In this document: piece by piece, positions 21,905-32,838 of the stretch | Layout: each line of letters begins with the position of its first letter | Numbering within the stretch: position 1 is the stretch's first letter | Notes under the pieces: model-generated | Database searches by the model: none | Told to the model about the DNA's origin: nothing | The model's input: only the letters and a program-made list of their open reading frames with translations | Translations under genes and position numbers: made by a program | DNA from: Bacteroidales bacterium | GTDB lineage: Bacteria > Bacteroidota > Bacteroidia > Bacteroidales > ML635J-15 | Direction: 5' to 3' | DNA length: 58,278 nucleotides | NCBI GenBank assembly: GCA_028702675.1 | Contig: JAQVOJ010000005.1 | Span: forward strand, 1 to 58,278

Positions 21905-24900
21905 TTATTTGAATACGGTTACTTGACCGGAGTAAGTATGGTCTTTTCCGTATTTGTCTTTTAAAGTAATAATCCAAACGTACATACCTTGTGGAACGTA
22001 ATCTCCTTTATTTTGACTGTATCTACCTTTCCAATGTTCATTAATATCGTTAGTTGTGAAAATTAACTCTCCCCATCTGTTGTAAACTTCAAATTTATAA
22101 GAATCATAGTCGAATCCCACACCTTTTGGATATAATTCATCATTGCCGGGAGTTCTGATATTAATAGCAGTTGGCATATACAGTCTGTGGTCTTCAATAA
22201 TTTCTACATTATGAACAACTGTATCAATACATCCCTCTTGACTAAATGCGATAAGCATTACAGGAAACTCGCCTTGGTCGTAATAAACATGTGTTGGGTT
22301 TTGTTCACCGGTTTGATGTCCGTCTCCGAAATGCCATTCCCAAGCATATGCATCTATACTTTGGTCGGTAAAATCAATTTGAGAATCGAATAAACCTGTT
22401 GACCATGGATGTGCGATAAAATCTGCAATTGGTGAAGTGTGTACTCTTACTGTAGTTGTTCCTCTTTCGGTACAGCCTGCTGCTGTTGTAATATCTACGC
22501 TTACCAAATAGTTACCTGGTTCTTCAAATAGGTGTGTTGGGCGTTTTAAGTTAGACCAATTATTTTCACCTGATTCTGCATCAGCAAAGTTCCAATCGTA
22601 AGTATAAGTAAGGTTTGTAGTTTCGTTGTCGAAAGTAACCAGTAGGGGAGAGCAACCTTTGTAAGGTGTTTTTGTAAGATTAATTTCCGGTCCTGGTGCT
22701 ACGTTTACTGTAACTTCTACGGTATCGTTTGGTGTTCCGCATCCATCACTTAACACAATTTGATAAGTAGTGTTCTCTGTTGGGCTAACAAGATGCGTAT
22801 TTTCAACTGTTACACTATTGTCGTCGCTCCAATGATATAGATAATTACCATCTCCACCTTCTGCAACAGCTACGAGTTGAGCATTATCTCCTTCGCAAAT
22901 TGAAGGAGGAATATTAACAGTAAGATCTAACGGCGGATTTACTGTAATATGTACTTGTCCTGTAGCCGATTCACATCCATTTGCATCTATTGCAATTACA
23001 TTGTAATCTGTTGAAACTATTGGGTCAACAAAGTATGATGGACCATATCCTAAATCTTCCCATAAGAAAGTATAAGGAGGAATACCACCTGAAGCAGAAG
23101 CAGAAACTATGGTGCTATCTCCGATACAAATAGTTCTATCACCATCAGTAAATAGTTCTATTTCGGAAGGACTTCCAATTGGGAAGGTTGTGTAAACTTC
23201 GCAACCATCTGCATCAACAATTGTTACAGCATAAATATTGGTAGTGAGTTCGTAGCTAGCCCATTCATCTGTAACATCAGGCGACCAATTGTATTCATAC
23301 GGAGGCATCCCTTGCGAAACATATATTTCTGCGTAACCATCGTTTCCTCCAAAGCATGTTACATCTCCATAATTTACATTATCTAGTTGAGGCGGTTGAG
23401 TTACACCAATGCTTACTTGATAGCTTTCGTTACATCCATTGATGTCTGTAATTAAAACTTCGTATAAACCGGGAGCTGCATTATAAATACTATCAGAGGT
23501 GTATCCTCCGGGGTTCCATAAATATGTATAGCCTCCTGATCCGCCATAAATAGAGCTTACCCATGCGCTTCCATTATCCATGTCGCAAGTAGCATTGTCG
23601 GTATCAAAGCTTGCTTGTATAGGTGGTGGTTGAGTAACAACAAATGTTTCTTGTACAAAACAACCTGCATCACTTGCATCGTAAACAATTACGGTATGTG
23701 GTCCGGCACATAAGCCTTCAACTACCATAGTATTTTGACCTAATTGAGGCCAGTCAACAGAATAATTATTATGTCCACCACTTACAGTAAGTGTAATAAC
23801 GCCATCGCAAGAACCATAGCAAGTTGCGGGTGTAATAATTGCATCTACTTCAATTGGGTCGGGTTCTGTGATTTCAAACTCAACAGAATCTATACAACCA
23901 TTGGCATCAGTAACAGTTACTACATAAAGCCCAGCACATAGTCCTGTAGCGTTATGTCCTGTTTGTCCTCCATTCCATGTAATTGTTAAAGGTAATGTGC
24001 CCCCGTAAGTTTGCACTATGGCAGATGCATTGCAGAAGCCATTACAAGTTACATGGTTAATATTAGCAACTTCAATACTCACAGGATTAGGTTGTGTAAT
24101 AGTAAATGATTCTGATGCACTACAATTATTTTCATCTGTGATTGTTACAGAATATGTTCCTTCTGCAAGATTAATAGCAATAGGACCGTTTTGTCCATTG
24201 CTCCATGCTATGGTATTACTTGGTGTTGTACTAGTAAAAATTACTTCTGCTGTTCCATCTGAATTTCCTGAGCACTGAACATTTGAAATTATGATATCTG
24301 TAATTTCAGGTGCCGAAATATCACTTATGCTTACACTATGAAAATCAGAGCAACCATGCGAATCTGTAACAGTTACGGTATAAGTTCCTGCCGGAATATT
24401 GTTTAGGGTGTTTGATGATCCTCCTGGATCTGACCAAATATAAGAATATGGTGGGACTCCTCCAACAACAGATACTGCAACCATACCATCGGAATTGCTA
24501 CAATGTGGTTGGATAGTATTTTGTGTAACAATATCTAAAATATTAGGACCGGTAATACTCCCTGATGTGTAAACATTACATCCATTAATATCAATAACTG
24601 TAAGATTGTAAATTCCGGAACAGAGATTATTAATAATTGAATTTGTTTCGTTGTTTGACCATAGATAAGTAAATGGAGCAGAACCTCCTGTTACTATTGC
24701 TTCAATTTCTCCGTCACAACTATTGTAGCATGTTTCGTTGGTTGCGTTAATTTGTACATTGATTACAGGTGGTTCGTTAATGTATATACAAGTATCTATT
24801 TCACAGCCATTATTATCAGATACAGTTACACAATGTTGTCCTGCCGGCAGATTAATGGGTGAAGAATTTGTTGAACCATTACTCCATAAAAAATCATAAG

Positions 24901-27900
24901 GAGGTGTTCCGCCTGTTGGTATTACTTGTATATTGCCACTTGAGCCTCCATAACACAGTACGTCATCAACTGAAACATTAGCAAAACTTAATTGTGTTGG
25001 TGAATTAACTGTAACAACATTTGTCTCGCTACATCCATTATTATCATAAACAGTTACAGTATATGTTCCTTCGCATAATCCAACAGCAGTTTGAGTTGTT
25101 TGAGCATTATCACTCCACAAGTAAGTATAAGGAGGTGTTCCACCATAAGGAGATGCAGTAGCAGTTCCATTACACAAACCATTACAACTTGTTAGAGTTG
25201 ATGATGTAGGAATAGTAATAAAGTCTGGTTCATCAACAGTATAATCATTTGTAAGTATGCAACCGTTGTCGTCAATTATTGCTACGGTATAATCTCCATG
25301 ACATAAATTGTAAATGTCTTCGTCATTTGGTATTGTGCCAGGTCCTGTCCAGTTGAAACTATACGGTGGGGTTCCATTGTATGGTGTTAGCTCAATACTA
25401 CCATCACAGTCGTTGTAACAGCTTGTATTTTCAACTGTACTCAAACTTGCTAGAGCTAGAGGTTCTGTGATTGTTGCACTAGTTGTAGCAATACAACCGG
25501 TAATTAAATCATTTACAGTAACAGAATAGTTGCCTGCACAGAGATTTGTTGCCGTTGCACTAGTTTGTGCCGGTGTAGTACTCCAGTTATATTGGAAAAT
25601 TCCTGAGCCACCAACTACATTAACTGTAATTGTACCATCACAAACTCCGAAGCAACTTACATTTGAACTTGCACCTATAGTGGCTACTGGTCCTGTAATA
25701 TCATTTACGGCAAAATTCAATATAGCTTGGCATCCTTTATTGTCGGTTACTGTAACTATATAAGTGCCAGCTGAAATATTTAATAAATCTTGAGTTAAGT
25801 CTCCAGTATTCCATAAATATGAATAAGGTGTACTTCCTCCAGTTACATCAACATCAATTGAACCGTTTGCTTGTCCGCAGTCTGATTCTGTTATATCTCC
25901 TGTAATAATAATAGGTTCGTTTTCTAATATAGTAACATCATCACTAATTGTACAACCATGTGCATCTGTTATTGTTACAGAATAGTCTCCGGCACATAGT
26001 CCACTATTGAGTAAAGTAGTATTTAAATTGCTCCAAATTGGGGAATAAGGTGTAGTACCACCTGTAACTTGTGCAAATGCTTCACCACTACAGTTTCCGA
26101 AACAATCAATTGCATTAGGTAATATGTTCAAAGTTAATAGTCCTGGTTCGTTAATGGTAATTCCTGCAGTTGTAGTACAACCAATTTGATCTGTTACAGT
26201 AACTTCATAATAGCCCATTCCAAGTCCCATAGCTGTAACCGCAGTTTGAGGAGGTGTTGTGTTCCATATATAAGTATAGTTGGGTGTACCTCCACCAACA
26301 GAAACAGTTGCTTGTCCGTCGCTTAATCCGGCACAAGTTACATCGTTATATGATGATATACTTGCAGATGGCCCGGCAATATCATTTACAGTTACAGAAG
26401 CAGTTTGTGAGCAACCGTTGTCGTCGGTAACTATTACAGTATATGGACTTCCGGCAGCACTCAAGCCTGTAACTGTGCTATTGGTTGATGGTGTGCCGGC
26501 ACTCCATTGGTATAAATAATCACCTGCAACAGTTCCACCTGAAGCTGTTACACTTGCGCTGCCATCGCTGTTGCCACAATTTGCATCTATTACGGTTGTG
26601 CTTAATACAATAGGTGCTGGTTGAGTTATTGAATAACTTATTGAAGCAGAGCAAGCATTATTATCTGTTACTGTTACACTATGTGTGCCTGCACATAAAT
26701 TAGTATTAGTGGCTGCATTAGGATTATTCCCACTACCCCATGAATAAGATACCGGAGGTGTACCTCCCGTATAACTAATGGTTACAGTACCATCACAATC
26801 ACCGTTACATGTTGTTGGTGTTGTATTATCGACAGCTAAAACAAGAGCAGGAGGTTGTGATATTGTTGCATTGGCTTGTGCTGTACAGCCTGAGGCGTCA
26901 GTTACTATTACAGACACAGGTCCTGCTCCAACTGTTATAGTATTAGTTAGGTCTGGTGTTGTAGTACTCGATCCGGTGCTCCATAAGTAAGTGAAGTCTG
27001 CAGTTCCGCCGCTTACATGAGCTGTTGCACTCCCATCTGTAGAGCCATTACAAGAAGCAGGTAAGGTTGTTATATTAACGCTTACGCCTCCTAAGTCAGG
27101 AACATTAGCATTAAATGATTCGGTGCAGCCATTATCGTCTTCAACAGTAACACTATAAACACCGGCTACGAGATTAGTAGCTGTTGCTGAATATTGTGCA
27201 GGTGTTGAACTCCATTCGTAGGAATAATCACCACTAACAGTTCCGCCACTTGCAGTTACTGTTGCTGATCCATCAGGTAACCCGCAGTGTGATCCAACTG
27301 TGCTTGTCGTAGCTGTTATTGCTGGGGGTTCTGATATTGATACACTAGCATTTACTTGACATAGACCTTCTGCCACTGTAACATAATGTGTCCCATCGCA
27401 TAAGCCTGTAACAGTCTGTGAATTAGGATTACTTCCACTACTCCATGTATATGAAAATGGTCCTGATCCACCTGTTACTGTAACAGTTGCAGAGCCATCA
27501 CAATAATTATTGCAGGATGCATCTGATACAACTGATGTTGAAATTGAAAATGGTACGCCACCATCTATTACGCTTACACTACCTTCTACCGTACATCCGT
27601 CTCCATCAGTAACAGTAACAGTATAATTTCCGGCTAAAATATTATTAATTGTACCTGTAATGCCGCCGTTAGACCAATTATAACTATATGGATTACTACC
27701 TCCACTTACAGATACGGATGCGCTACCATTTGCAAGACCACAAGTGGCATCTGTACTACTCATCGTTAAGCTCATGCCTGCAGGGTCACTTATTGAGAAA
27801 TTCTCTATTGTGTAACATGCTGGATTTGTTGCATCAGCAACAGTAACAGTATAATTACCTGCACACAGTCCCCCTGTGCTTTGATTATTAGGAGTTGTTC

Positions 27901-30277
27901 CATCCGAATAAGTATAAGCGTAACTTGGAGCTCCGGTTGCATTTACTGTAGCCGTAGCGTTACAATCTCCAGGACATACAGGGGGTGTAGTAACAACATT
28001 AGCATTTGGTATGCTTCCAGAACTATTTATTGTAAAAGTATTGGAGCCAATGCATCCGTTAGAATCTTGAACAGTAACAGTATATGTACCGCTACATAAA
28101 TTATTCTCGGTAATACCTGAGCCTCCTGATGACCATGAGTATGACGAATAAGAAGTAGTTACAGTTGCTGTACCATCACAAATACCGCAGTTTTCGTTTG
28201 TGGTAGTTATACTTGGGACAGGATCGGGATAAACTGTAATATCAACACTCTCAGTATCTGTACAGCCACTTGCCCCTGCAGAAATTGTTAAAGTTACAGT
28301 ATGTGTGCCAGGAGAATTAAATGTAATTCCGGTAGGGTTGTGTGCAGTTGAGGATGCCGGAGTTCCACCTCCAAAATTCCAACTATAACTTTCACTGGGT
28401 ACAGGAGTGCCTGTATGTGTAAAATTGAATGATTGACCTGTAAAGCATTGGTTCCCATTATATGTAAATGTTGCATCAGGTATGTCCGGTGCAACAAGAG
28501 TAACACTATTAGTATTTTCACACCCATCTGCGTCTGTAAGTGTTAGGTTATAAGTACCCGGACTTAGATTTGTAAACGTATGGCTTACAGTAACCCCTGA
28601 TTGGGTCATTGAGTTAGCTTGAACAGTAAATGGTGGTACTCCCGATGTAGGAGTAATCGTAATACTACCATTATTCCCTGCACAGCCAGGGTTGGTAGTA
28701 GATACATTTGCCGCAACAGGGGGCGGGGCATTTAAGACTAATGTCTCTGTCCACTCACATAACCCATTTGAGTCTCCAATTGTTATAGTATAAGAACCCG
28801 GAGCTAAACCTGTAAGATTTTGTTGTGTTGATGTAAAACCTGATGGTCCTACCCAATTAAAATTGTAAGGAGAAGTTCCTCCTGATACACCACTAATTGT
28901 TATAGTTCCATCATTAACATTATAGCAACTCGGATCAGTATATGCTCCTGTTGCTGTTATACCATCTATTGTAAAGGTAATACTACTTTGAGGAGAATAA
29001 TTTCCACAAATATCTGTAACTCCTCCACCTACGGCAGTTAAAGTATATGTGCCATCGTGCTGTAAGTAATCGCCTAATGCAAAATTCCAAATATCATCAT
29101 AATAGGTGTCGCCATAAGTACTACCTAAACCGGCTTGACAAAAGTCACTCCAAACATCATTTATTGTATATGTCCCATTTGGACCTGTAAGTGTAAAGTC
29201 TGATGCGTTAACACCGGTGCACCATATTTTTTCTGAAAACTGAACAGTAAGATATGATGAGCCACAATATGGAGCATAGATTAAATGGTCTATATAGGCT
29301 GGATCATTATCAACAATAGATGCTGTACTTCCCGAAAAATTTATATTATAACCGTTAGTTGAGGCAGAAAAGTTACTTACATTAATAACATAAGTATCTC
29401 CGGCAGTAACGGTTAGTGGACTATTATAATTTGAACAGCTATTGGGACCTTCACACGAAGTTGAACCTGAACCTAATCCTGTAGGTCCGGTAGTTCCACA
29501 ATAATTACAACTTAAAGGTGGATTGGCACTATAATTAATCAAGTCTTCGCATGTAACACTTGAAGATAGTCTCCATAATGCCCAGTCGTAATCGTCAGCA
29601 GAATTTACAGGATTAATTAAAAATGCTAAAGAACCACTTGAGGCAACAGTAAATGTGTACCACATATTATTATCTTCGCCTGAGACCAGACAGTTCGGAC
29701 AATTGTTAACATTAACCGCCATCCCATCATTGGTGTTAAAATCGTACAGATCAGTATAATTCCCTTCACCTGATGCTGAAATAGTATGAGTATTGCTAAC
29801 GTCGCATAATGGTAATGCACCTAAACAGTCGGCTTCAGATGGGGGGGTTAATACTCTGTAAGCCATTGTTCCAATTGATGAGCTGGTAGTATTACAATTA
29901 TATCTGTAGATAACAACACTATAAACGCCATTTGCAGGAGGTGTAAATGTTATGCTACTACCAAGACCGCAAAAATCATCATTATATGCATAAACGGTTG
30001 CTCCACTAGCATCGCATATTTCTAACTGAGTATCGCCGCTGTAGCTACCTCCACCTTCGCAAAAAGTAAATATATAAGTCATATAATCAACTCCTGCAAA
30101 AGTGTAACGAGTTCCTGAATTAACATTGATTGTTTGATAATATTCATGTAGAGTTAGAGCTCCTGCGTTAGTAGTTGAGGTTCCACTATTACATTGTGCA
30201 TATATGCTGTTTGAACTTAACGAAAATATGCTAAGCCAAAATAAAATTATTAAGTAGTAGTAAAGCTTTATTCTCAT
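21905..30277 (-). CDS. Giant SprB-repeat surface protein with T9SS C-terminal domain
   Basis: A 2790-residue cell-surface protein. Order: signal peptide 1-27 (SIYAQ); a Cys-rich CUB/pre-peptidase-like region 28-140; a second adhesin-like region 150-435; about 24 SprB repeats of some 75-80 residues (441-2371), interrupted once by a PKD-like domain after repeat 2; two Ig-like modules 2372-2528; two PKD domains 2529-2617 and 2618-2698; and a gliding-motility-associated C-terminal domain 2699-2790 (YMPTAINIRTPGNDELYPKG to SGQVTVFK), which directs secretion by the type IX system. SprB is the gliding adhesin of Flavobacterium; adhesion here is inferred. Probable operon with the three genes upstream. 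Confidence 0.93.
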   Translation of the reverse strand: MRIKLYYYLIILFWLSIFSLSSNSIYAQCNSGTSTTNAGALTLHEYYQTINVNSGTRYTFAGVDYMTYIFTFCEGGGSYSGDTQLEICDASGATVYAYNDDFCGLGSSITFTPPANGVYSVVIYRYNCNTTSSSIGTMAYRVLTPPSEADCLGALPLCDVSNTHTISASGEGNYTDLYDFNTNDGMAVNVNNCPNCLVSGEDNNMWYTFTVASSGSLAFLINPVNSADDYDWALWRLSSSVTCEDLINYSANPPLSCNYCGTTGPTGLGSGSTSCEGPNSCSNYNSPLTVTAGDTYVINVSNFSASTNGYNINFSGSTASIVDNDPAYIDHLIYAPYCGSSYLTVQFSEKIWCTGVNASDFTLTGPNGTYTINDVWSDFCQAGLGSTYGDTYYDDIWNFALGDYLQHDGTYTLTAVGGGVTDICGNYSPQSSITFTIDGITATGAYTDPSCYNVNDGTITISGVSGGTSPYNFNWVGPSGFTSTQQNLTGLAPGSYTITIGDSNGLCEWTETLVLNAPPPVAANVSTTNPGCAGNNGSITITPTSGVPPFTVQANSMTQSGVTVSHTFTNLSPGTYNLTLTDADGCENTNSVTLVAPDIPDATFTYNGNQCFTGQSFNFTHTGTPVPSESYSWNFGGGTPASSTAHNPTGITFNSPGTHTVTLTISAGASGCTDTESVDITVYPDPVPSITTTNENCGICDGTATVTTSYSSYSWSSGGSGITENNLCSGTYTVTVQDSNGCIGSNTFTINSSGSIPNANVVTTPPVCPGDCNATATVNATGAPSYAYTYSDGTTPNNQSTGGLCAGNYTVTVADATNPACYTIENFSISDPAGMSLTMSSTDATCGLANGSASVSVSGGSNPYSYNWSNGGITGTINNILAGNYTVTVTDGDGCTVEGSVSVIDGGVPFSISTSVVSDASCNNYCDGSATVTVTGGSGPFSYTWSSGSNPNSQTVTGLCDGTHYVTVAEGLCQVNASVSISEPPAITATTSTVGSHCGLPDGSATVTASGGTVSGDYSYEWSSTPAQYSATATNLVAGVYSVTVEDDNGCTESFNANVPDLGGVSVNITTLPASCNGSTDGSATAHVSGGTADFTYLWSTGSSTTTPDLTNTITVGAGPVSVIVTDASGCTAQANATISQPPALVLAVDNTTPTTCNGDCDGTVTISYTGGTPPVSYSWGSGNNPNAATNTNLCAGTHSVTVTDNNACSASISYSITQPAPIVLSTTVIDANCGNSDGSASVTASGGTVAGDYLYQWSAGTPSTNSTVTGLSAAGSPYTVIVTDDNGCSQTASVTVNDIAGPSASISSYNDVTCAGLSDGQATVSVGGGTPNYTYIWNTTPPQTAVTAMGLGMGYYEVTVTDQIGCTTTAGITINEPGLLTLNILPNAIDCFGNCSGEAFAQVTGGTTPYSPIWSNLNTTLLNSGLCAGDYSVTITDAHGCTISDDVTILENEPIIITGDITESDCGQANGSIDVDVTGGSTPYSYLWNTGDLTQDLLNISAGTYIVTVTDNKGCQAILNFAVNDITGPVATIGASSNVSCFGVCDGTITVNVVGGSGIFQYNWSTTPAQTSATATNLCAGNYSVTVNDLITGCIATTSATITEPLALASLSTVENTSCYNDCDGSIELTPYNGTPPYSFNWTGPGTIPNDEDIYNLCHGDYTVAIIDDNGCILTNDYTVDEPDFITIPTSSTLTSCNGLCNGTATASPYGGTPPYTYLWSDNAQTTQTAVGLCEGTYTVTVYDNNGCSETNVVTVNSPTQLSFANVSVDDVLCYGGSSGNIQVIPTGGTPPYDFLWSNGSTNSSPINLPAGQHCVTVSDNNGCEIDTCIYINEPPVINVQINATNETCYNSCDGEIEAIVTGGSAPFTYLWSNNETNSIINNLCSGIYNLTVIDINGCNVYTSGSITGPNILDIVTQNTIQPHCSNSDGMVAVSVVGGVPPYSYIWSDPGGSSNTLNNIPAGTYTVTVTDSHGCSDFHSVSISDISAPEITDIIISNVQCSGNSDGTAEVIFTSTTPSNTIAWSNGQNGPIAINLAEGTYSVTITDENNCSASESFTITQPNPVSIEVANINHVTCNGFCNASAIVQTYGGTLPLTITWNGGQTGHNATGLCAGLYVVTVTDANGCIDSVEFEITEPDPIEVDAIITPATCYGSCDGVITLTVSGGHNNYSVDWPQLGQNTMVVEGLCAGPHTVIVYDASDAGCFVQETFVVTQPPPIQASFDTDNATCDMDNGSAWVSSIYGGSGGYTYLWNPGGYTSDSIYNAAPGLYEVLITDINGCNESYQVSIGVTQPPQLDNVNYGDVTCFGGNDGYAEIYVSQGMPPYEYNWSPDVTDEWASYELTTNIYAVTIVDADGCEVYTTFPIGSPSEIELFTDGDRTICIGDSTIVSASASGGIPPYTFLWEDLGYGPSYFVDPIVSTDYNVIAIDANGCESATGQVHITVNPPLDLTVNIPPSICEGDNAQLVAVAEGGDGNYLYHWSDDNSVTVENTHLVSPTENTTYQIVLSDGCGTPNDTVEVTVNVAPGPEINLTKTPYKGCSPLLVTFDNETTNLTYTYDWNFADAESGENNWSNLKRPTHLFEEPGNYLVSVDITTAAGCTERGTTTVRVHTSPIADFIAHPWSTGLFDSQIDFTDQSIDAYAWEWHFGDGHQTGEQNPTHVYYDQGEFPVMLIAFSQEGCIDTVVHNVEIIEDHRLYMPTAINIRTPGNDELYPKGVGFDYDSYKFEVYNRWGELIFTTNDINEHWKGRYSQNKGDYVPQGMYVWIITLKDKYGKDHTYSGQVTVFK
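23165..28957 (-). repeat. Array of about 24 SprB-type coding repeats
   Basis: Each unit follows the plan C-x3-(C/x)-DG, GG(T/S)PPY-x-Y-x-W, L(C/x)AG-x-Y-x-VTV-x-D-x-x-GC. Units are diverged at DNA level, so the array is old rather than recently amplified. Eleven units carry two extra cysteines, the others neither. Confidence 0.85.
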
Positions 30278-30319: not shown

Positions 30320-30949
30320 TTATTTAATAATGTACTTTTTCGTGTTATTTAAAACTTCTATTTGTTTTTCTTCGTCTAACTTATTAAAATCTTCTTTAGA
30401 AATTTCAATAATATGATTTTCATCTAATTCATGTAACATTTCCTGATATTCTAAAGGATTCGCTTCTACCCATTGTTGTTTGCGTTTTGCATAATCCTTC
30501 TTGTCATCTTGTTTGTTTCCTGTATCATTATATTTTGGAAAACCCGGATAGTTAACATCGTTTCTTTGTAATTGGTCTCCATCGCTAATATTAGTAGCTG
30601 CAGAGTTTTCAATAGTTCCATTTATTGAAACTGTCGAAAAATCATAATCTACATTATGAGTAAGTAGGATATTTCTAACATATTCGGCAGTAATATCATT
30701 ACTACATTGAATATGAAAACGGTCTTTACCTTGACTTGATAAAAAATATCTTGCAAATGAAATCTTTGAATCATCTAATAAACTCTGAACTATAGCATCT
30801 GCCTGTTCATCATTATTAAGTCCTTTTACATGAAAATAAATGCTTGATTCATTACCAAGTGGCTTTTTTAAAGTAAATTCCAATACGTCTTGTGAATAGC
30901 TAAAGCATGTAAATGCTAACAATCCTAAAATCATATAAAACTTTTTCAT
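30320..30949 (-). CDS. Exported protein of unknown function
   Basis: A 209-residue protein with a signal peptide at 1-20 (CFSYSQD). Residues 22-112 look like a beta-alpha-beta-beta-alpha-beta (ferredoxin/HMA-like) domain: SSIYFHVKGLNNDEQADAIVQSLL then SSQGKDRFHIQC and AEYVRNILLTHNVDYDFS. The rest is charged and probably extended or helical (KKDYAKRKQQWVEANP). It lies between the anti-sigma-like gene and the giant SprB gene (34 and 42 bp gaps) and may assist secretion or regulation of that protein. I do not recognise a named family. Confidence 0.75.
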   Translation of the reverse strand: MKKFYMILGLLAFTCFSYSQDVLEFTLKKPLGNESSIYFHVKGLNNDEQADAIVQSLLDDSKISFARYFLSSQGKDRFHIQCSNDITAEYVRNILLTHNVDYDFSTVSINGTIENSAATNISDGDQLQRNDVNYPGFPKYNDTGNKQDDKKDYAKRKQQWVEANPLEYQEMLHELDENHIIEISKEDFNKLDEEKQIEVLNNTKKYIIK

Positions 30950-30983
30950 ATTAAGTAGTTTATTTAGTTTCTAATATTATTTT

Positions 30984-32270
30984 TTAATTACCTATAAGAT
31001 TTACTTGTCCTTTTCTAACTTTTGAATTACCATATTTGTCAATAGTAATAATTTCCCATAAATATATACCAGGTTCTGCCATTTCACCTATATTATTTAT
31101 TTTACCATTCCATAAATTATCTAATCTATCTGTTTCAAAAACGAGTTTTCCTGTTCTGTCGAAAATAAGCATTCTAATTGTATAATCTTCTAAATAATCG
31201 CCAATTGGACCAAATTCAGCATTAATCCCGTTACTTAATGGTCTAAATGCTGTTGGAACAAAATAGTTGTGCTCTATTTCAATATCTATTATTTTACTTG
31301 ATGTAGATTTACAACCTTGATTATTAATAACGGTGTGTTTAACTGTAAATCTACCATCTTTAGTAAACTCATATTCAAAAGAACGTTCAGTTTCAATAAT
31401 TCCATCAAGTTCCCATTTATGCAAAACTTCTTGTTCAGAAAAACTATTAAAAGTATAAAAATTATTATTTATATCAAAAGAAAAATCTGAAACTGGGGTA
31501 TTAAATATTTCTATAATTTCAAATGAACGTGTTTTAACTACCTTGTCGTTCTGATCGTATATGGTGAGAGTTGGTTCGTATAGACCGTGCTTTTCGTATG
31601 TGTGTGAAATATTTTTCCCATTTGATTGTTTATTGTCCCCAAAATTCCATACAGCTTTCATGTTTTTAGACAAATTTTCCACTTCAAACTCAACTAAGCC
31701 TGGCACACATTGATTTATTATATTAATATTTGATCTAATAGATTCTATATCAAATGAAAGCTTGTCTGCTAAATTATTTTCTTCTGAACCGCTCTCTTGT
31801 GAATTAATACTTGTATTATCCTCAATATTATTATCCTCTTCAAAATCGGATTCTGTAATTTTATTTACTGTATAATTTGTACTTTCTGTGTTGTTCTTTT
31901 GTAAATTGCTTGTATTATTATTCTCTACAAATGTTGTGGTATTATTATTATCGGTAGAGTTGCTATTTTCGCTTGATATTGAATCATTAGATTTAATTAT
32001 AGGTTTTTCGTTTTCTGAACTTAAATTGATATTTTCTTGTTGATTTTGTTGTTTTTCTTCTGATATTGTTTTGTTATTGATTGAGTCGATTACAACAAAT
32101 GCAACAATAGAAATAACAGCAACAGTAATACTGCTGATAATCCAATGCTTATATCCCCAGCTTGTTGGTTTATGTGTTTTAGAAATAAATTCTTCCCATG
32201 CACCACTGCTTACAGGTGCATTGTAGTTTTCTAATTTATTTCTTATTTCTTTTTCAAATTTATTCATCAC
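30984..32270 (-). CDS. Anti-sigma-like membrane protein with PKD and T9SS-type C-terminal domains
   Basis: A 428-residue protein. Residues 1-40 (FEKEIRNKLENYNAPVSSGAWEEF) resemble the cytoplasmic part of Bacteroidota anti-sigma-type proteins; one membrane helix spans 42-61; a Ser/Asn/Glu-rich linker follows to about 180; a PKD-like domain lies at 195-262 (VWNFGDNKQSNGKN); and a gliding-motility-associated C-terminal domain is at 336-428 (YFVPTAFRPLSNG, then GIYLWEIITIDKYG). Its start overlaps the sigma-factor gene by 11 bp. It probably restrains that sigma factor and senses a periplasmic or secretion cue. Confidence 0.82.
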   Translation of the reverse strand: MMNKFEKEIRNKLENYNAPVSSGAWEEFISKTHKPTSWGYKHWIISSITVAVISIVAFVVIDSINNKTISEEKQQNQQENINLSSENEKPIIKSNDSISSENSNSTDNNNTTTFVENNNTSNLQKNNTESTNYTVNKITESDFEEDNNIEDNTSINSQESGSEENNLADKLSFDIESIRSNINIINQCVPGLVEFEVENLSKNMKAVWNFGDNKQSNGKNISHTYEKHGLYEPTLTIYDQNDKVVKTRSFEIIEIFNTPVSDFSFDINNNFYTFNSFSEQEVLHKWELDGIIETERSFEYEFTKDGRFTVKHTVINNQGCKSTSSKIIDIEIEHNYFVPTAFRPLSNGINAEFGPIGDYLEDYTIRMLIFDRTGKLVFETDRLDNLWNGKINNIGEMAEPGIYLWEIITIDKYGNSKVRKGQVNLIGN

Positions 32271-32838
32271 TATTTTCGTAATATTTTTCGTATAATAATT
32301 TTAATTTTGCTTTAGCTTTAGCTAAATTTGATTTTGATGTACCTATACTTATATTAAGCATCTCTGCAATTTCTTTATGCGAATAATCTTCTACAACATA
32401 AAGATTAAATACGGTTCGGTAGCTTGGTGTAAGTTCTTGAATTAATTCAATAATTCGTTCTGCTTTTAATTTGGCTATTTTCATCTCTTCAATTTCATTG
32501 TCTGAATCATCTTCTAAGCGACTAAATTTGTGTTCTCCTTCAAATTCAAAATACATCTTTTTATTCTTTCTAAAATAGTCAATAGCATTATTAACTATTA
32601 TTCTTCGTATCCAACCTTCGAAAGAACCTGTGTGCTTAAAATTATTCATCTTTTCAAAGACCTTAATAAATCCGTCGTGTAACAAGTCCTTAGCTTCTTC
32701 ACGATCTGATGCGTACCTTAAACAAAGACCTAGCATTTTGCCGTAAACAGCCTCATATAACTGTCTTTGGCAGTTGTTGTCGCCCCTGATACAACCCTGT
32801 ACTATTCTATCAACATTTTCACTGCTGCTCAGGTCCAT
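32260..32838 (-). CDS. ECF-type RNA polymerase sigma factor
   Basis: A 192-residue ECF sigma-70 factor. Region 2 spans about 30-95 (YASDREEAKDLLHDGFIKVFEKM and FEGWIRRIIVNNAIDYFRKNKK) and region 4 about 128-180 (LTPSYRTVFNLYVVEDYSHKEIAEMLNISIGTSKSNLAKAKAKL). No region 3 is present, as expected. It heads the operon that ends with the giant SprB gene; overlap with the anti-sigma-like gene suggests coupled translation. Its target promoters are unknown, but the downstream genes are the obvious candidates. Confidence 0.92.
   Translation of the reverse strand: MDLSSSENVDRIVQGCIRGDNNCQRQLYEAVYGKMLGLCLRYASDREEAKDLLHDGFIKVFEKMNNFKHTGSFEGWIRRIIVNNAIDYFRKNKKMYFEFEGEHKFSRLEDDSDNEIEEMKIAKLKAERIIELIQELTPSYRTVFNLYVVEDYSHKEIAEMLNISIGTSKSNLAKAKAKLKLLYEKYYENSDE

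Follow-up and report, generated by a model that had tools for sequence, protein, structure and literature searches.

Coupled cysteines predict disulfide staples between neighboring repeats, and an optional bond within them, in a giant SprB-repeat protein of Bacteroidales

Giant SprB-like proteins serve as the surface adhesins in Bacteroidota gliding, and they leave the cell through the type IX secretion system (T9SS). The stretch of DNA analyzed here (hereafter the window; 58,278 nucleotides of contig JAQVOJ010000005.1 from a Bacteroidales bacterium) encodes a protein of this kind, P0001, whose repeats carry cysteines at recurring positions. This raises the question of which of these cysteines bond to which. 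From its N terminus to its C terminus, P0001 consists of an N-terminal region, an Ig-like/Big domain, 24 SprB repeats (numbered 1 to 24 from the N terminus), two Ig-like domains, two PKD domains, and a CHU_C sorting domain; one PKD domain interrupts the array between repeats 2 and 3. It matches the SprB repeat family (Pfam PF13573) with 460.5 bits over 25 stretches (cut-off 28) and CHU_C (PF13585) with 43.0 bits against a cut-off of 27, as expected of T9SS cargo; its score for the NCBIfam T9SS type B model (TIGR04131) is 19.6 bits, with a cut-off of 35. The main features are:

21905..30277 (-), gene of the SprB-repeat protein P0001, 2,790 aa
28721..28963 (-), SprB repeat 1 (alignment)
23165..28963 (-), array of 24 SprB repeats (Pfam PF13573, 25 stretches; repeat alignment)
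23165..23392 (-), SprB repeat 24 (alignment)
21920..22144 (-), CHU_C type IX sorting domain, residues 2712-2786 (PF13585)

We refer to the first and second cysteines of the motif C-x3-C-[D/N]-G as C1 and C2, to the cysteine of L-C-x-G as C3, and to that of D-x-x-G-C as C4. The preliminary description of this locus had reported that 11 repeats carry both C2 and C3, that the other 13 carry neither, and that there is no mixed case. Listing all 99 cysteines of P0001 and aligning the repeats bore this out, and reproduced the order of the two classes along repeats 1 to 24 (- - + + - + - - + - - + - + + + - + - - + + - -, where + denotes both cysteines), an order that the description had suggested may tune the stiffness of the long stalk. 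C1 and C4, previously given as nearly invariant, are both invariant columns among the 24 repeats. Some details had to be corrected: the distance between C2 and C3 is 28-35 residues rather than 35-40; repeat 3 has C-x2-C rather than C-x3-C; and repeat 17, rightly said to lack C2 and C3, is not plain, since it has an extra pair of its own in strands F and G. The chance that C3 would fall on the same 11 of 24 repeats as C2 is 1/C(24,11) = 1/2,496,144, or ~4e-7 (hand calculation), a figure computed for repeats that arise by duplication and are thus partly dependent. The extra pairs, from the listing of cysteines, are:

28094..28180 (-), repeat 3, C700/C728
27863..27964 (-), repeat 4, C772/C805
27398..27502 (-), repeat 6, C926/C960
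26693..26797 (-), repeat 9, C1161/C1195
25994..26092 (-), repeat 12, C1396/C1428
25538..25642 (-), repeat 14, C1546/C1580
25301..25408 (-), repeat 15, C1624/C1659
25073..25174 (-), repeat 16, C1702/C1735
24788..24832 (-), repeat 17, alternative pair C1816 (strand F)/C1830 (strand G); also from the model and the orthologs
24620..24718 (-), repeat 18, C1854/C1886; also from the model
23936..24034 (-), repeat 21, C2082/C2114
23708..23809 (-), repeat 22, C2157/C2190; neither cysteine at this place in five orthologs

The same coupling was observed across the phylum in a sample comprising the SprB proteins of the same genome, 75 loci across Bacteroidota found with a two-repeat query, and the orthologs of P0001. 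In an HMM alignment of 1,574 repeats, C1 is present in 95%, C2 in 31%, C3 in 27%, and C4 in 96%. When DNA patterns with fixed spacings were used instead, C3-x-G stood at the expected spacing from every, or almost every, C1-x3-C2-[DN]-G site in most loci. Four loci that appeared in these pattern counts to have C2 without C3 (L079, L039, L041, L042) do possess C3, either as LCATTY and not LCxG or at a shorter spacing. We then have, for the window and 26 loci, classes read by eye from the translations: ~790 repeats, among them ~315 with both cysteines, 477 with neither (counts of this last class may be off by a few), and 2 mixed. Counts are given as both/neither/mixed:

Window: 11/13/0
L034: 0/38/0
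L035: 0/11/0
L041: 2/2/0
L042: 2/2/0
L059: 10/14/0
L060: 15/39/0
L061: 9/14/0
L062: 0/46/0
L064: 29/1/0
L067: 32/4/2
L068: 0/28/0
L070: 19/12/0
L077: 36/3/0
L079: 14/4/0
L080: 0/37/0
L084: 32/1/0
L090: 0/44/0
L092: 27/6/0
L093: 10/34/0
L098: 0/35/0
L101: 7/25/0
L109: 19/9/0
L144: 10/14/0
L145: 10/14/0
L146: 10/14/0
L147: 11/13/0

Family members with many mixed repeats, the observation that the preliminary description had named as counting against its proposal, were looked for, and the search yielded just 2 such repeats in ~790. Both belong to L067 and have C3 without C2, together with another extra cysteine ahead of C3 (GPLCSAAP, GPVCNPNPG); because of this replacement, their number of cysteines stays even. 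On the other side, a lone extra cysteine occurs in a few repeats elsewhere (YFC in L077, TYTC in L109 and L092, TATCTG in L060). In the second half of L093, and from repeat 10 onward in L061, repeats with and without the pair alternate strictly, so that neither neighbor offers a C3 to a given C2, and the partner within the chain must lie in the same repeat. The optional second disulfide proposed earlier, between C2 and C3 of one repeat, is thus a well-supported prediction from these patterns.

Six proteins, those of the window, L059, and L144 to L147, are orthologs with the same 24 repeats; L059 is 54% identical to P0001 over the whole length, and identity in the N-terminal part is 48-67%. None of their 144 repeats has a single C2 or C3. 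All six share the same class at 22 of the 24 positions, an order that is therefore not random. At the two remaining positions, repeat 22 bears the pair in the window only and repeat 11 in L147 only, both cysteines changing together each time, and the simplest reading of these alignments is two joint gains of C2 and C3. The strand F/strand G pair of repeat 17 is found in 6/6 orthologs, and L059 alone has such a pair, with both cysteines, in repeat 10. The contig carrying L059 (JAQIDD010000268.1) is labeled Candidatus Delongbacteria; its frame of 2,805 aa equals the length of the match in a genome of the window's own family (G005), and the label is probably a binning error.

Structure prediction for repeats 17-19, based on an alignment of 85 rows, gave a confident model (mean pLDDT 97.1, pTM 0.80). 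In each repeat C1 follows strand A, in the A-B turn, and C4 lies between strands F and G, in the F-G turn; in repeat 18, strand B begins right after C2 and strand F right after C3. The model shows beta-sandwiches arranged in tandem, as expected of a tandem Ig-like stalk, and in a fold search they resemble GhpA, NCAM, and titin. By the established topology of Ig/FnIII domains, the lower pole bears the A-B and E-F turns and the upper pole the F-G turn. Together with the strand order of the model, this topology would put C2 and C3 together at one pole and C1 and C4 of a given repeat at opposite poles, and the A-B turn of each repeat would face the F-G turn of its successor.

The pattern of losses of C1 and C4 bears on their partners. 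In four loci with repeats lacking C1, the next repeat lacks C4 in 23/23 cases. Ten repeats of L080, a Tenacibaculum protein of 3,574 aa, keep C4 without C1, and in 10/10 the next repeat keeps C1 without C4; no repeat of this protein lacks both (hypergeometric ~4e-8, hand calculation uncorrected for duplication). The loss of C1 goes with loss of C4 in the next repeat also in L098, a relative of L080 (9/9), in L060 (2/2), and in L034, a protein of 2,788 aa (2/2). L080 and L098 are homologs with duplicated blocks, so their coupled losses are not independent; those of L060 and L034 occur in unrelated contexts. One exception is common to L080 and L098, where a C4-less repeat (LCKGEETAEL / PCFGDSKAVL) follows a repeat bearing C1.

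The ends of the arrays follow a related rule. Twenty-three proteins bear C4 without C1 in their final Ig-like domain, the one that precedes the sorting domain or a change of domain type (P0001, P0003, L041, L042, L059, L060, L061, L062, L064, L067, L068, L070, L077, L080, L084, L090, L093, L098, L101, and L144-L147). Four other proteins (two in L034, one each in L035 and L079) do have C1 in this domain, and in them another cysteine comes directly behind it. In P0001 itself, beyond repeat 24, the two Ig-like domains have C1 and C4 (C2384/C2435 and C2461/C2513), and the C-terminal PKD domains would close the series:

22229..22654 (-), predicted end of the staple chain, C2542 (C1 of the first C-terminal PKD) with C2683 (C4 of the last PKD, which has no C1), from sequence reading

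A minimal version of this arrangement is found in P0003, encoded two genes upstream of P0001 in the same direction, with P0002 in between. The whole protein has exactly two cysteines, one in each of its PKD domains:

30984..32270 (-), P0003, two PKD domains and CHU_C (Pfam)
31707..31709 (-), C188, C1 position of PKD 1 (this domain has no C4)
31311..31313 (-), C320, C4 position of PKD 2 (this domain has no C1)

A model of this PKD pair, made without an alignment, was poor (pLDDT 49), and agrees only in the places of the cysteines, beside strands B and G. Coupled losses, the rule at chain ends, and the cysteines of P0003 are all as expected if C1 of one repeat bonds to C4 of the next, and are left unexplained by a bond between C1 and C4 of the same repeat. 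We therefore suggest, as the most likely arrangement, a bond from C1 of repeat i to C4 of repeat i+1, by which neighbors would be stapled together.

The preliminary description had instead taken C1 and C4 of one repeat as the first disulfide, with C2-C3 as a second bond inside the same repeat. In most repeats the cysteine content expected is the same under either scheme, C1 as well as C4 being near-invariant, and the schemes differ where cysteines are missing: C1-less repeats of L080, L098, L060, and L034 keep C4 while the next repeat lacks it, 23 proteins end their chain in a domain that has C4 without C1, each PKD of P0003 has a single cysteine, and the strand order of the model would put C1 and C4 at opposite ends of the sandwich. 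The C1-C4 bond within a repeat, as the main disulfide, is probably wrong; that scheme is largely refuted, and we now give it little credence.

Doubt could also be raised about the C2-C3 bond. Co-occurrence alone proves neither oxidation nor an intramolecular bond, and the two cysteines might be free thiols, a metal site, or bonds between neighboring stalk molecules. This seems slightly more improbable still: the protein is exported through the oxidizing periplasm, a metal site would be expected to have more than two cysteines, and the alternating arrays put the within-chain partner in the same repeat, with nothing to suggest a partner in a second chain. The least probable of the alternatives is that the two classes are old paralog clades in which C2 and C3 were copied together without bonding. 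Repeats do spread by duplication, and blocks recur, with a period of two repeats in L061 and of three in L075. Yet at repeats 22 and 11 the orthologs, compared position by position along the chain, differ by both cysteines together, the coupling holds phylum-wide in very different backgrounds, the only two repeats with C3 and no C2 carry another extra cysteine, and a different extra pair (strand F/strand G) behaves alike.

With C1(i)-C4(i+1) staples as the preferred pairing, P0001 is very probably a surface stalk in which tandem Ig-like SprB repeats carry disulfides of two tiers, the second being C2-C3 within a repeat. A point against a scheme in which all cysteines are paired is their total in P0001, 99, an odd number. 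In the first tier, the bond would run from the A-B turn of one repeat, where C1 sits at the lower pole, to the F-G turn of the following one, where C4 sits at the upper pole, linking each repeat to the next down to the last PKD. In the second, present in some repeats, C2 (at the start of strand B, four residues after C1) would bond to C3 of its own E-F turn; lying at the same lower pole, this bond would lock the staple-bearing turn to the E-F turn. Only ~26 residues separate C4 of one repeat from C1 of its successor (e.g., C1900 and C1926), so two repeats, or ~152 residues, would be crossed by ~26 residues plus one S-S. The stapled chain would thus be a series of overlapping covalent loops, and the stalk could hardly lengthen even with its domains unfolded.

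A nearly inextensible stalk, if real, would suit an adhesin that carries pulling force, and would pass on the force of the moving track without unfolding. Such a stalk would have to cross the outer-membrane channel folded and already cross-linked, or else be oxidized outside. We consider it likely, with somewhat less assurance than for P0001, that the SprB-type giant adhesins of Bacteroidota are disulfide ladders, in which all repeats are stapled and nearly inextensible, and conserved, position-specific extra bonds stiffen selected junctions. The pairing rule (C1 with the next C4, C2 with its own C3) could also serve to check domain boundaries, order, and completeness in genes that are hard to assemble.

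The SprB repeat family and tandem Ig stalks as a kind are already known. In the papers searched, which are largely from outside the subscription journals, neither inter-repeat staples nor the C2-C3 class were described, and our literature search for inter-domain disulfides in tandem Ig adhesins gave nothing on point. The Pfam model PF13573 spans 37 residues only and leaves out C3 and C4. Like SprB of F. johnsoniae, described as having ~6,500 aa and forming a ~150 nm filament (PMC13104615), P0001 is a giant T9SS protein with tandem PF13573 repeats and a C-terminal CHU_C sorting domain. The gene of P0001, unlike that of the SprB gliding adhesin, has no adjoining PorP/SprF gene: there is no carrier gene of this type beside it, and the ten PF11751 matches in the genome include none on the window's contig. 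Its neighbors are an ECF sigma factor gene, P0003, and P0002. Positions 30320-32838 of the window comprise the sigma factor gene followed by P0003 (a membrane segment, two PKD domains, and CHU_C) and P0002, all upstream of P0001 and in the same direction; P0003 might be an anti-sigma-like partner. Elsewhere in this genome, a 1,315-aa SprB protein and the SprF gene that follows it gave identical scores on two contigs (C30 and C87), reflecting either an assembly duplicate or a real duplication.

The best match in the PDB, by both sequence and fold, is grappling hook protein A (GhpA) of Aureispira (9flp to 9flx). It also has tandem Ig-like domains with cysteines at the places of C1 (ICEG) and C4 (DANGC, LDGC), and its structures may already show the inter-domain staple; it differs in its ~20% identity (fold alignment) and in having no C-x3-C-DG/LCxG pair in the alignments seen. 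In the PKD domains of P0001 and P0003, cysteines occupy the places of C1 and C4, and these domains appear to be part of the staple chain, although by sequence they belong to another family and have no C2-C3 pair. Disulfides are known to carry mechanical coupling in gliding and the T9SS, in SprF-GldK and PorG-GldK (PMC12635249); within SprB itself, the papers searched describe none. Those bonds join envelope proteins and the track, whereas the ones proposed for P0001 would be structural and inside the exported stalk.

Other cysteines likewise occur as pairs. One such pair, the third optional one, has a member in strand F (Y/H-C-V-T-V) and another in strand G (x-C-x-I), and in most cases is either complete or absent; it is found in the window (24788-24832), L060, L093, L101, L059, and L144-L147, and in repeat 48 of L060 it occurs together with C2-C3. 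L077, L109, L084, L070, L067, and L092 have more extra cysteines, again in twos, of two types: a pair in the B-C loop before Trp (e.g., FTCGDEPCTIAW), and a cysteine of strand B accompanied by another immediately ahead of the LxAG motif. The repeats that alternate strictly with the C2-C3 repeats in the second half of L093 are of another type, with C after DxNxC and often YC...CC, and their numbers of cysteines fit a bond to a cysteine in the following linker.
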